Shown piece after piece: positions 23,133 through 27,390 of a DNA stretch of 64,000 nt. Position numbers and translations under genes: made by a program. The first letter of the stretch is position 1. The number at the start of each line of letters is the position of its first letter. The DNA is taken from contig NZ_AP025739.1 in NCBI RefSeq assembly GCF_003574315.2, positions 930,001 through 994,000 on the forward strand, written 5' to 3'. The notes beneath the pieces are model-generated. The model was not told where the DNA came from. It made no database searches and saw nothing but the letters and a program-made list of their open reading frames with translations. The DNA is from Capsulimonas corticalis (GTDB taxonomy: Bacteria > Armatimonadota > Armatimonadia > Armatimonadales > Capsulimonadaceae).

Positions 23133-24632
23133 GTGACGGAGAATGGGCGCTTGCTGCGCCGTTATGTGGAGGAAAATTCGCAGGCCGCTTTCGCGGAGTT
23201 GGCGAAGCGCCACTTGCGACTGGTTTTTGGGACGTGTCTGCGCGAACTGCACGATCCGGTTTTGGCGGAGGACGCCACGCAGGTGGTGTTTCTGGTGCTG
23301 GCGCGCAAGGCGTCCAGCATTCGATCCGAGGCGTCTCTGCCGTGCTGGCTTTTCACAACAGCGCGGCTGACGGCGCGGCAGATTCGCAGACGGGAGCAAA
23401 TGCGCCAGGAGCGTGAGCGGCAGGCATTCGAGCAGAGTTGGCGGGACGAAGACAGCGCCGTCTGGGCGCGCATCGCGGACCGAGTCAACGACGCCGTTGC
23501 GGCGCTGGGCGAACAGGATCGCGAGGCGGTCCTGATGCGGTTCTTTGACGGGATGAGCTTGAAGGAAATCGGAGAGCTGCTCGGTGTCCCGGAGAACACG
23601 GCGCGGATGCGCGTACAGCGGGCGGTCGTCAAGCTGAGGCGGCGTCTGGCCCCGGCCGGCGCCACACTGAGCATCGCCGCATTGACCGCCGCGCTCACAG
23701 CGGAAGCAGCGCGCGCGACACCTGACATCTCCCAAATTGGGGAGCGAATATTAGATTCGCATCAGGCCGGTTCGGCGCCGATGGGAGCAGATATTTTCAC
23801 TCGCGACTCCGCCCCTCTCAGTCATTCTCTGAGTCAAATGGCCCAAGGAGTTATTCAGCAGATGATCATCAATAAATTACGCACAGCCCTCGTGACAGCG
23901 AGTGTTGGCGCTCTCGGCGTCTCCGGTATTTATACGGTCGCCAGTCATGCAGCGGCTTCTGGAAAATCCCGAGCCGCACACACTCGCCCCGCAATCGCGT
24001 CCACGAGCGCCGCGACAACGCCCGGAAGTTCTACGACGGATCCGAAAGCGCTGGAGATTCTGCGTCAATGCCAAGACGCCTATGGCTCCATGACAACGTT
24101 CGACGAGACGGTCGAGGCGCAAATCAATGGCGCAATGTCCGCGTCGGCGCACATTTCTTTCCAAAGCCCGGACAAGCTGCGAGTGGTGGGAAAGACACTC
24201 GGTCAGGCGCCGGCGATGGGCTTACCGTATGACATGCTGTCCAACAGTCAAACCCGCCGCGTCTTGATGGATGGCAAGCCATTTGATTATCCGATGCCGC
24301 AATCGGATATGGCGATCGCCGCCATCACCGGCGTTTCCGGCCTCTCCGGGGCGATCGTCCCATCGCTGCTCACCCATTCCAAAACCTGGGATTTCTCGGA
24401 GCAAGCCAAAGGCAGCCCTCTCACGCTCTCCACGGAGACCGTAAACGGCGCCGCGACATACCGAATATTCAGTTCTCCGCCTACGGGAAACACGACCTAT
24501 TGGATTGATCGCAAGAGCTACTTTCTTGTAAAGATGGCGATGGATATGCGAGGCAAAAACTTTCATACAATCCTGACGTTTGACAACCCTACGGTCAACG
24601 GGCCGATAGATCCGGCGACCTTCACTCCCTAA
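23133..24632 (+). CDS. ECF sigma factor fused by a membrane segment to a LolA/DUF2092-like extracytoplasmic domain
   Basis: A 499-aa protein with GTG start. Residues 1-75 are sigma region 2 (LAEDATQVVFLVLARK) and about 115-172 are region 4 with the helix-turn-helix (MSLKEIGELLGVPENTARMRVQRAV). A short hydrophobic stretch (176-195) and a clear TM segment (about 249-272, after INKLR) follow. A Ser/Thr/Pro-rich linker (280-305) leads to a domain of about 195 aa resembling the LolA-like lipoprotein fold (DALGxM-type opening QDAYGSMTTFDETVEAQI, then INRKSYFLVKM-like and LTFDNPTVNGPIDPATF endings). Positive charges before the TM predict sigma inside, C-terminal domain outside. The protein could release sigma on an envelope cue. 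A second sigma fusion follows. The C-terminal family assignment is less certain than the sigma part. Confidence 0.85.
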   Translation: MTENGRLLRRYVEENSQAAFAELAKRHLRLVFGTCLRELHDPVLAEDATQVVFLVLARKASSIRSEASLPCWLFTTARLTARQIRRREQMRQERERQAFEQSWRDEDSAVWARIADRVNDAVAALGEQDREAVLMRFFDGMSLKEIGELLGVPENTARMRVQRAVVKLRRRLAPAGATLSIAALTAALTAEAARATPDISQIGERILDSHQAGSAPMGADIFTRDSAPLSHSLSQMAQGVIQQMIINKLRTALVTASVGALGVSGIYTVASHAAASGKSRAAHTRPAIASTSAATTPGSSTTDPKALEILRQCQDAYGSMTTFDETVEAQINGAMSASAHISFQSPDKLRVVGKTLGQAPAMGLPYDMLSNSQTRRVLMDGKPFDYPMPQSDMAIAAITGVSGLSGAIVPSLLTHSKTWDFSEQAKGSPLTLSTETVNGAATYRIFSSPPTGNTTYWIDRKSYFLVKMAMDMRGKNFHTILTFDNPTVNGPIDPATFTP

Positions 24633-24666: not shown

Positions 24667-24708
24667 CTCACGGCCTGACCCTCATCAGGCCGTGAGTCTC
24701 TCCTTCCT
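24667..24708 (+). terminator. Probable terminator after the first sigma fusion gene
   Basis: CTCACGGCCTGA (24667-24678) pairs perfectly with 24685-24696 across a 6-base loop, followed by the pyrimidine-rich TCTCTCCTTCCTC. This suggests the two sigma fusion genes are separate transcripts. Confidence 0.65.
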
Positions 24709-24777
24709 CATCTTCCCTCAGAAAAACAATTTCCCATTCGTCTGTCGGATTCTTTCCCTGGATGGCCATGATTAAGT

Positions 24778-26217
24778 ATGCAAACACGACAGAGGCATGA
24801 CTGGGATCTGGTCCGGCAGTATGCGCGGCATGGGTCGCAGGCGGCGTTCGATGAGCTGGTGCGGCGGCATATGAAGCTGGTTTACACCACTTGCCGCCGG
24901 GAGCTTGGGGATCCTTGGCTTGCGGAGGATGTCACGCAGGTCGTCTTCTTGATCCTGTCCAGAAAAGCGGGCATGCTGCCGCCCGGCGCGATTGTTTCCC
25001 GATGGCTGTTCAAAACCGCGCGCTTTGCGTCTCAAGACGTGCGGAAACGAGAAGCCCGGCGATTGGCCCGGGAAGCGAGTCTGCGCGCGCAGGCGTCCGC
25101 TTCCGCCGAAGTCGATAGCGGTGATGTCTCGGCGCTGGACATGGCGCTGCTGTCGGCGCTCGGTTCGCTGGGACGCAGCGACTGGGAGGCCGTGCAGTTC
25201 CGGTTCTACGAGGAAATGAGTTTTCATGAGATCGGAGAGAGGTACGGTATTTCCGACGACGCGGCGCAGAAACGCGTGTCCCGGGCGGTCGATCGGATAC
25301 GCCGGGCTATCGCCCATGAGGGGATCTGTCTCACGGCGGCGACAATCGCGGCGCTGATCGGATCGGAGAATTCTCAAGCCGCGCCCAACACGGCGCTTCA
25401 ACGGATCGAACAGGCTTCTTCTCTTCCGGGGAGCGTCCATTCCGGCGCGCTGGCCGTCCAATCGAAAATCTACGGACTGACAAAAGGAGTGCTCACCGCA
25501 ATGGCTCTCAAAAATATGGCGACCGCCGCCCTCGTACTGGTCGTCGCGCTGACCGCCGGCGCGCCGCTGATCGTTCAGGGACAAAGCAATCCATCGGCGG
25601 CGACGCCTGCCGTCACGGCGCCCGCCGGCAGCGCGGACTCGAACTCGCTCCCCTTCACAATCGTCCTCGACCCCGGCCATGGCGGCAGCGACTCTGGGGC
25701 CACTTCGAGCGGCCCCGGTCGAGTCCTGGAGAAAGATTTGGATCTGGCGATCGCCCTCAAGCTGCGTGATCTGCTCGCGGCAAAAGGCGCCCGGGTATTC
25801 CTCACACGCGACAGCGACGTCTATTCGATTCCCAGCAAACGGGCGCGAATCGGCGTCAACCACCACACGGATTTCTTCCTCTCCATCCATTGCGGCAGCA
25901 CGTCGCGGGAAACCATTTCCGGAACCACCGTCTATTATCATGCGCAAAATAAGGCCGCCCAGTCGCTGGCGGTCAGCGTGCTCAACGGCGTCGCCCAGCA
26001 ATCCGTCCTGCCCGCCTACGGCGCCATGTCCGACACCACTCGTTTCACAAACGGGTTTTCCATCCTTCGAGAGCAGCCAAGCAACGCCATCTTGATTCAG
26101 TGCGGATTTATGTCCAATCCCCTCGACCTCTCCGCTCTCACAGACCCGGAAAAGCAAACACGGATCGCGCAGGGGATCGTGGACGGGCTTACTGCGGCGG
26201 CCTCAAGTCGGAAATAG
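24778..26217 (+). CDS. ECF sigma factor fused by a membrane segment to an Amidase_3 (N-acetylmuramoyl-L-alanine amidase-like) domain
   Basis: A 479-aa protein. Residues about 15-80 form sigma region 2 (LAEDVTQVVFLILSRK) and 118-175 region 4 (SFHEIGERYGISDDAAQKRVSRAVDR). A TM segment (about 246-266, NMATAALVLVVALTAGAPLIV) follows, then a Pro/Ala linker and an Amidase_3 domain (about 293-475). Zinc-ligand positions fit the family: His301 in DPGHGG, Glu318 in VLEKD, His371 in SIHCGS. The second catalytic position, normally Glu before CGFMSN or TGFxSN, is Gln441 (IQCGFMSNP). So the domain may bind but not cut peptidoglycan. Topology predicts sigma in the cytoplasm and amidase outside. The 3' end overlaps the convergent next gene by 29 nt. 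Confidence 0.88.
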   Translation: MQTRQRHDWDLVRQYARHGSQAAFDELVRRHMKLVYTTCRRELGDPWLAEDVTQVVFLILSRKAGMLPPGAIVSRWLFKTARFASQDVRKREARRLAREASLRAQASASAEVDSGDVSALDMALLSALGSLGRSDWEAVQFRFYEEMSFHEIGERYGISDDAAQKRVSRAVDRIRRAIAHEGICLTAATIAALIGSENSQAAPNTALQRIEQASSLPGSVHSGALAVQSKIYGLTKGVLTAMALKNMATAALVLVVALTAGAPLIVQGQSNPSAATPAVTAPAGSADSNSLPFTIVLDPGHGGSDSGATSSGPGRVLEKDLDLAIALKLRDLLAAKGARVFLTRDSDVYSIPSKRARIGVNHHTDFFLSIHCGSTSRETISGTTVYYHAQNKAAQSLAVSVLNGVAQQSVLPAYGAMSDTTRFTNGFSILREQPSNAILIQCGFMSNPLDLSALTDPEKQTRIAQGIVDGLTAAASSRK

Positions 26218-26827
26218 ACGCGCTGGCGCTTCGATCCCTGAGACTTCCTTGGGCTGACGGGGAAGCATGAGCAAGGATCTCGTCGCTTCGCTGGAGTACG
26301 GCTTGCCGCTGGGAACATGAGATTTCTTCGACATGCCCATCGGCAAAGCCAATGGCGATGCTGCTTCCATGGCGCGCCGCGCAGGGAGGCAAAGCGCCGG
26401 CGATATCCGATGGAGAGGGGCTTTGCGCGGCTGCCTCATAGATCAAAATCACTCGGTCGGAATGCGGCAGCTTTGTCAGATCGCGCAGGGATAAGGCGGG
26501 GTTGAAAGCGAATTTTCTTGGCCGCTCCCAGAAATACGTGGAGGCCCGTAAGGTCACACCGCCAGCAGCATCAGCCGAAACGGCGTTTTCCCAATTTTGA
26601 ACGCCTGGGAGATGACCTCCATGGTCCTGAGCGTACGCCAACAAGACCTCTTCGACCGTGTGAGCCCTCAGCATCGTTTCCCCTTGAGCGCTTCTGTCGA
26701 TTCGGTTTTGCCCGAGCAGAAAGCCGGCCGTCACGGCGACAATTCCGGCGCCCAGGATACTCAGAACCGTCGTCCGAGAATGGGCTCCCCGCCCAGGCTG
26801 GGAAGTTGGCTGAATTCTGGAAGGCAT
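26189..26827 (-). CDS. Single-pass membrane protein with pseudopilin-like ectodomain (paralog of next gene)
   Basis: A 212-aa protein with an N-terminal TM (about residues 21-40, TVLSILGAGIVAVTAGFLL) and an outside domain with VLLAYAQDHGGHLPGVQNWENAV and, near the end, IGFADGHVEEIS. The pattern LxxYAxDHxGxLPxxxxW and the terminal FADGHV are shared with DUF1559/type II pseudopilin ectodomains, but the prepilin FTLIE signal is absent. It is clearly related to the adjacent gene at 26890-27390. It converges on the sigma-amidase gene with overlapping ends. Function unknown. Confidence 0.7.
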   Translation of the reverse strand: MPSRIQPTSQPGRGAHSRTTVLSILGAGIVAVTAGFLLGQNRIDRSAQGETMLRAHTVEEVLLAYAQDHGGHLPGVQNWENAVSADAAGGVTLRASTYFWERPRKFAFNPALSLRDLTKLPHSDRVILIYEAAAQSPSPSDIAGALPPCAARHGSSIAIGFADGHVEEISCSQRQAVLQRSDEILAHASPSAQGSLRDRSASASISDLRPPQ

Positions 26828-26889
26828 TTAGGAGTTCTCCAGATCATGTCGGCTGCGCATTTTCTGCTCGTGATATTGAAAATCAGCCG

Positions 26890-27390
26890 CTATTTCTTAG
26901 GCGCTGTAAACATTATCTCCGGGCCTTCCGCATAGGAAGCCGACCACCCGCTTGCAAAAACAATCATCCTCGACCCTGGCGCTGAACTTGAGCATTGATG
27001 ATATTGCTTCCAAGGGAAAATCCCATGTGCGTTTTTTGTGTCTGAGTGGCTTTCATAAAGAACAACAGAGGTATCAGGGGAGATCTGACGCAATTTCAAT
27101 CCAGAGAACCTGTCGTTCATGGTAAGCCGGTCACCAGGATGCCGCGCCATTAGCACAGTGGAATCTTTTTCCGGCCAATCACTCTTGATGCTCTCTTCCC
27201 AATGACGAGAAGCAGGCAATTGCCCGTGATGTTTTTCGGCGTAATCCAGTATGGCGAGACCTGCGGACTGAGCGACGCGCAAATCGGAGCGGTACGCAGA
27301 GCCTTGCGATTCGCTATGCGTGCGTGTATGGAGAGCAAATATAGAAACACTCACCCCGAGCGCCAAAGAAACGAGCAGACAGTGATTCAT
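26890..27390 (-). CDS. Single-pass membrane/secreted protein with pseudopilin-like ectodomain
   Basis: A 166-aa protein with an N-terminal hydrophobic segment (LLVSLALGVSVSIFAL) and an ectodomain with AILDYAEKHHGQLPASRHW, LKLRQISPDTSVVLYES and a degraded FASGWSASY ending. It aligns through its length with the 26189-26827 protein (for example YAEKHHGQLPASRHWEESIKSD against YAQDHGGHLPGVQNWENAVSAD), so the pair is a tandem duplication. It lacks the conserved DGH of its neighbour. The ribosome site is weak and a second, out-of-frame ATG overlaps upstream. Confidence 0.65.
   Translation of the reverse strand: MNHCLLVSLALGVSVSIFALHTRTHSESQGSAYRSDLRVAQSAGLAILDYAEKHHGQLPASRHWEESIKSDWPEKDSTVLMARHPGDRLTMNDRFSGLKLRQISPDTSVVLYESHSDTKNAHGIFPWKQYHQCSSSAPGSRMIVFASGWSASYAEGPEIMFTAPKK

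Follow-up and report, generated by a model that had tools for sequence, protein, structure and literature searches.

We propose, with slightly less than even confidence, that many ECF sigma genes of Armatimonadota, Verrucomicrobiota and Planctomycetota are nested two-product genes, in each of which a single mRNA yields both a membrane-tethered sigma-receptor and, through a conserved internal start, a secreted, soluble copy of the receptor domain, and that in the gene described here the organism's own wall enzyme has supplied this domain, as an amidase that is now disabled. The gene lies on the plus strand at 24778-26217 of a 64,000-nucleotide stretch of Capsulimonas corticalis DNA (the window), to which positions refer unless another locus is named.

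The gene is one unbroken frame of 479 aa. Pfam places ECF sigma region 2 at residues 27-94 (24856..25059; PF04542, Sigma70_r2, 36.1 bits against a cut-off of 24) and region 4 at residues 127-175 (25156..25302; PF04545, Sigma70_r4, 35.0 bits, cut-off 24.1). Region 3 is absent, as in ECF (group 4) sigma factors; the NCBIfam sigma70-ECF model (TIGR02937) matches at 74.4 bits (cut-off 42.9), and Foldseek matches the sigma half to SigW, SigK, SigE and SigH. Region 4 is followed by a family-specific linker (approximately residues 181-235, 25318..25483) with the conserved sequence LTAATIAAL...QAAP, by a hydrophobic segment (residues 238-256, 25489..25545) recognised in a hydropathy scan, in the family alignment and as a helix in the AlphaFold2 (AF2) model, and by an Amidase_3 domain (residues 295-472, 25660..26193; Pfam 144.9 bits, cut-off 27). 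The sigma and amidase halves were modelled separately. AF2 models the amidase half confidently as an Amidase_3 fold (mean pLDDT 90.3, from an alignment with 54 viral-contig homologues), with Foldseek matches to CwlD, LytH, CwlV, Cwp6, AmiC2 and 4rn7. The model of the linker is of low confidence (pLDDT 43-67 beyond residue 200). The first-pass annotation of this DNA had read sigma regions 2 and 4, a membrane helix and Amidase_3 in one chain, with no anti-sigma gene adjacent. This reading holds: the Pfam domains and one hydrophobic segment (about 238-256) lie in a single uninterrupted frame, with no frameshift dividing it into two genes; Pfam finds no anti-sigma domain in the protein, and no anti-sigma gene is recognisable among the scanned neighbours. 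The hydrophobic segment, with Lys at its flank, leads us to infer that the Amidase_3 domain lies outside the cell; the segment may act as the signal anchor of the long form and possibly as the signal peptide of a short form. Convergent with the sigma gene, on the minus strand at 26189-27390, two small secreted-looking proteins of 166 and 212 aa are encoded, alike in build and without a Pfam match; the first listed ORF overlaps the 3' end of the sigma gene.

A search with the N-terminal 270 residues identified six further sigma-linker-TM proteins in the same genome, giving seven in total. The 479-aa protein is about 34-40% identical to most of these paralogs and has the linker in common with them, while their C-termini match CarboxypepD_reg, give no more than a weak match to DUF3887 or DUF2092, or have no Pfam assignment. 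Members in Abditibacteriaceae carry WD40 and FG-GAP domains, and Verrucomicrobiota and Planctomycetota have members too, many per genome. In alignments, a conserved segment after region 4, ending in AAP, is common to the family, and the hydropathy of several family membrane segments is marginal. The 479-aa protein has the sigma domain, the linker ending in AAP, the hydrophobic segment and the variable C-terminus that mark the family. Judged by its sequence, the gene is thus one of a sigma-linker-TM-X family that extends over Armatimonadota, Verrucomicrobiota and Planctomycetota and in which the outer domains are interchangeable. The earlier interpretation of the protein as a tethered sigma factor serving as a receptor is accordingly retained in part: sigma factor and amidase fold do share one chain with a membrane segment, but the tether is general to a paralogous family rather than particular to this protein.

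One paralog, of 499 aa, is the gene immediately upstream (23133..24632, plus strand; identified by ORF, Pfam and the N-terminal search). Its C-terminal domain has no Pfam match, and it has an AAGGAG (23845-23850) and an internal ATG (23862) of its own. Sigma-TM-X genes are often in tandem or closely paired in Verrucomicrobiota and Planctomycetota, as they are in the window (L090 5986-12033; L097 3703-7425; L099; L103; L106). In single Planctomycetota genomes (G292, G823, G853, G758) the number of strong family members reaches about 10 or more; most have open frames of 450-1200 aa, and they form a large unexplored set of outer domains.

The evidence for a second product lies in the nucleotide sequence just 5' of the hydrophobic segment, which reads AAAAGGAG-TGCTCACCGCA-ATG, with the Shine-Dalgarno sequence AAGGAG at 25484..25489 within the coding frame and the ATG of Met242 at 25501. 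The arrangement AAGGAG-N11-ATG before the hydrophobic segment is shared by 6 of the 7 genome paralogs and by Abditibacteriaceae, same-genus, Verrucomicrobiota and Planctomycetota members, and it is kept through the choice among synonymous codons, despite proteins that are only about 35-40% identical and a GC-rich genome. Where members have [KQE]-G-...-M, 15 of 18 use an A-ending codon followed by GGA, compared with 1.7 predicted by the codon usage of the individual genes (P ~6e-14) and with 21 of 300 [KQE]-G dipeptides at other places in these proteins. Matches of at least 6 nt to the anti-Shine-Dalgarno complement were found in 19 of 62 members versus 4.7 expected (P ~1e-10); in the later-fetched Planctomycetota set alone, at a threshold of 5 nt, there were 11 versus 5.5 expected (P = 0.001). 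Likewise, 21 of 96 Met codons in the n-region interval have such a match versus 25 of 831 Met codons lying elsewhere inside these genes (odds ratio 9, P = 2e-10); all of these P-values treat members as independent and, because the members are related, overstate that independence, and the signal has the same direction in all three subsets. The codon-conditioned counts replaced a first test by duplex energy, which gave no discrimination, G-rich synonymous alternatives also scoring well. Within the gene itself, no sequence before the annotated start matches as well as the internal AAGGAG does. The 11-nt spacer is long, and paralog L006 and many Verrucomicrobiota and Planctomycetota members have no internal Shine-Dalgarno sequence. 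The conservation of AAGGAG-N11-ATG points to an internal start, from which the nested in-frame ORF (25501..26217, plus strand) would give a 238-aa protein with a signal-peptide-like N-terminus (MALKNMATAALVLVVALTAGAPLIVQGQS) and the Amidase_3 fold beside the membrane-held sigma factor. In other words, the outer amidase-fold domain may also be made alone.

The same nucleotides could instead act as a programmed pause before the hydrophobic segment that aids membrane targeting, with only the full-length tethered sigma factor being made. Shine-Dalgarno-like sequences inside genes can slow ribosomes, AAGGAG directly precedes the hydrophobic segment, and some family members have no ATG at the right place. 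However, pausing has no need of an ATG and leaves it unexplained that nearly all members with AAGGAG have one 11 nt on, that a Met falls in the interval before the hydrophobic segment in 62 of 83 members versus about 22% expected from Met frequency, and that the sequence after the ATG resembles a complete signal peptide. We consider a pause unlikely, though not far-fetched. A simpler receptor with a single product, whose disabled amidase would respond to peptidoglycan or muropeptides and whose sigma factor would be freed by a proteolytic cut within the membrane or close to it, would suit the domain order, the disabled active site and the kept zinc ligands. It would also suit the precedents of IutY, which is released proteolytically, and SCO4117, for which such release is proposed (PMC8999054). 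But it leaves the internal start unexplained, and the outer domains of the paralogs (WD40, FG-GAP, CarboxypepD_reg) are unrelated to peptidoglycan; we find it rather unlikely.

We therefore keep to the reading with two products, for which the upstream region of the gene suggests a mode of regulation. A promoter-like element, TGTCGGATTC-N13-CCATGA (24743..24771, plus strand), which is common to other family members, was identified in a two-block motif search (leave-one-out p = 0.003). In Armatimonadota members the motif reads TGTCSGNTTT-N13-ACATTA, usually 16-27 nt 5' of the start, and has a content of 13.7 bits versus 10.3-10.7 for shuffles. Several Verrucomicrobiota and Phycisphaerae genes outside the training set score p <= 0.003, and 0 of 30 in a later, broader and more distant Planctomycetota set reach p <= 0.01. 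In the sigma-Amidase_3 gene the element is unusually near the ATG, ending 6 nt before it, so that the mRNA would be nearly leaderless; the annotated start may deserve a re-check. A short out-of-frame ATG ORF (MIKYANTTEA, 24769-24801), possibly meaningless, lies over this annotated start. Between the two sigma genes, the inverted repeat TCACGGCCTGA-CCCTCA-TCAGGCCGTGA (24668..24695, plus strand), followed by a pyrimidine-rich stretch, is terminator-like; it was seen in the sequence and not called by the scan. Positive self-regulation is common for ECF sigma factors, and the family promoter motif together with the inverted repeat suggests it for the sigma-Amidase_3 gene, the promoter being a statistical assignment. 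A genome scan with the family motif gave 16 matches versus 5 for a reversed control, and apart from two genes of the family itself the 16 have no clear functional theme; with a stricter gapped pattern the numbers were 7 versus 4, with one family gene among the 7. Thus, genome-wide there are few convincing targets beyond the family's own genes. Matches also lie 5' of a probable ribosomal protein S7 gene (L184, G000:C1:3991532) and of the gene for a secreted-looking protein (L189, G000:C1:2424822); these may be regulon members or chance.

The fusion of this sigma architecture to Amidase_3 was encountered once. The first-pass annotation had suggested looking for other proteins with the same sigma-TM-Amidase_3 order and for conservation of a Glu-to-Gln change in their amidase domains. 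No second fusion was found in 291 Armatimonadota, 388 sampled Verrucomicrobiota and 392 sampled Planctomycetota genomes, in searches that could miss split matches and weaker candidates, and a single-protein related-locus search of genome contigs returned no relatives of the 479-aa protein. Because this is the only fusion found, there is no ortholog in which the change could be conserved, and it cannot be called so. One candidate for a second fusion, in G004 (C95), was rejected; its amidase frame is cut by the contig end, and the available sequence has no sigma part.

As to where the domain came from, a tree of 42 amidase domains (IQ-TREE, LG+C20) places it within a clade of own-family AMIN-amidases with support of 99/97, with a terminal branch length of 1.6 changes per site versus a median of 0.14; support for its exact place inside the clade is weak (87/58), and trees can go astray on long branches. 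The relative resident in the same genome, L001, has 620 aa and the order AMIN-Amidase_3, and its amidase domain retains the Glu. Nesting among these amidases on a long branch points to capture from a resident amidase; the domain was thus probably captured from the lineage's own wall amidase and then changed fast. The very long branch, the single occurrence among 291 genomes of the phylum and the alteration of several otherwise conserved positions would also be expected of a decaying passenger, captured by recombination and drifting without a role in sensing. Against this, the frame is open across the whole domain, for which the chance is about 0.002 in a random 189-codon stretch, the zinc ligands and fold residues are kept, and GC3 is coding-like (0.73 in the amidase half versus 0.72 in the sigma half). 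Because the frame is open and its GC3 equals that of the sigma half, the domain does not appear to be drifting freely, and we regard a passenger as improbable.

In the amidase domain, His301 (25678..25680), Glu318 (25729..25731) and His371 (25888..25890) all align with zinc-ligand positions and are kept. By contrast, Gln441 (CAG, 26098..26100) stands where all 98 other amidases compared have Glu (Amidase_3 domains from Armatimonadota, 43 of 43, and from viruses, 55 of 55). The first-pass annotation had noted both the intact ligands and this Gln, and the alignment bears it out; it also reveals a second active-site loss, Gly373 (25894..25896), which replaces the Asp/Asn of the H-x-D/N motif present in 98 of the 98 others. 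Thr364, Asn436 and several further conserved positions are changed as well. The domain is therefore a member of Amidase_3 by fold and by its His/Glu/His zinc ligands, and not a predicted active enzyme, because Gln441 and Gly373 depart from the C-terminal catalytic Glu (E-x-G-[FY]) and H-x-[DN] of all 98 amidases compared. In AmiA of E. coli, the Asp of H-x-D (Asp135), which is equivalent to Gly373, binds zinc in the resting enzyme (PMC10268282), and work cited in PMC4946905 reports the equivalent of the lost Glu as required in related amidases. These residues suggest that the domain probably no longer works as an amidase. The three intact zinc ligands and the intact fold might be taken to mean that Gln441 and Gly373 lower rather than abolish activity, so that the protein would serve both as a membrane-bound amidase and as a sigma factor; but with Glu invariant in all 98 relatives and reportedly required, and with the second active-site position lost too, this is quite improbable. 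CAG and GAG differ by one base, but that the domain is in fact active and Gln441 was misread in sequencing is hardly credible, since the genome is a single 7.65-Mb contig and Gly373, Thr364 and Asn436 also differ from strongly conserved residues.

In the model that we favor, the long product would be a signal-anchored membrane protein with the sigma factor in the cytoplasm and the disabled Amidase_3 fold outside. There, the outer domain would most likely bind peptidoglycan or an amidase partner, without cutting. The sigma factor is probably kept off RNA polymerase by the membrane and the linker until regulated proteolysis (site-1/site-2) frees it; the freed sigma factor would then activate its own gene via the family promoter. 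The internal start probably also gives the outer domain alone as an exported, soluble copy, which could take up ligand or partner in competition with the tethered receptor, or could dampen the loop of self-activation. As a whole, with tethering, a disabled outer amidase, proteolytic release, a self-promoter and a second internal start all taken together, we judge this model to be evenly balanced between right and wrong. M50/S2P-family proteases are present in the genome, which says little because, to our knowledge, M50-family proteases are present in nearly all bacteria.

If the model is correct, a large and poorly studied group of sigma factors would be transmembrane receptors, each encoded by one gene and able to exchange its sensor domain, and a cell-wall enzyme would be recruitable as such a domain. 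Many of these genes would hold an unannotated second gene inside the first, and it would in part be explained why these genomes have so many orphan ECF sigma factors that lack an anti-sigma partner. The model can be tested at precise sites: a single start codon, a single promoter motif and a single active-site residue.

Several known systems share elements of this design, IutY and SCO4117/ECF52 being the nearest to it. In SCO4117 and the ECF48, ECF52 and ECF53 groups of Actinobacteria, as here, an ECF sigma factor is joined via one or more TM helices to an outer domain, which is carbohydrate-binding in SCO4117; for SCO4117/ECF52, a membrane-held sigma factor with proteolytic release has been proposed (PMC8999054). 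However, ECF48, ECF52 and ECF53 carry a zinc-finger anti-sigma (ZAS-type) domain, whereas the 479-aa protein has no such Pfam domain and no H-x3-C-x2-C in its linker, and phylum and linker differ. IutY (ECF243) of Pseudomonas putida similarly combines sigma factor and membrane part in one chain and is released by Prc and RseP (PMC8999054), but its C-terminus is a FecR-type anti-sigma domain that works with a TonB receptor, while here Pfam finds C-terminally only Amidase_3. ECF57 and the planctomycete WD40 ECF sigma factors likewise have long C-terminal extensions, WD40 being also among the outer domains of the present family. The WD40 ECF sigma factors of the planctomycete Tuwongella fractionate with membranes, being recovered in detergent-soluble fractions (PMC8567305), in line with membrane association; in a literature search of limited reach, we found neither an Amidase_3 member nor an internal start described for these groups. 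On the amidase side, L001, AmiC, CwlD, LytH and CwlV have the same fold, and the sigma-bound domain branches with own-family amidases, but all of these keep the Glu and H-x-D/N and have no sigma factor joined to them. CwlM, a mycobacterial amidase homologue with a degenerate active site that acts as a regulator (PMC4946905), is a precedent for a disabled amidase in such a role; it differs in being cytoplasmic, in lacking the zinc ligands, in acting on MurA and in not being fused to a transcription factor. Thus, the fusion itself is a variant of known extension-bearing ECF sigma factors, and the more surprising features are the family pattern and the conserved internal start.
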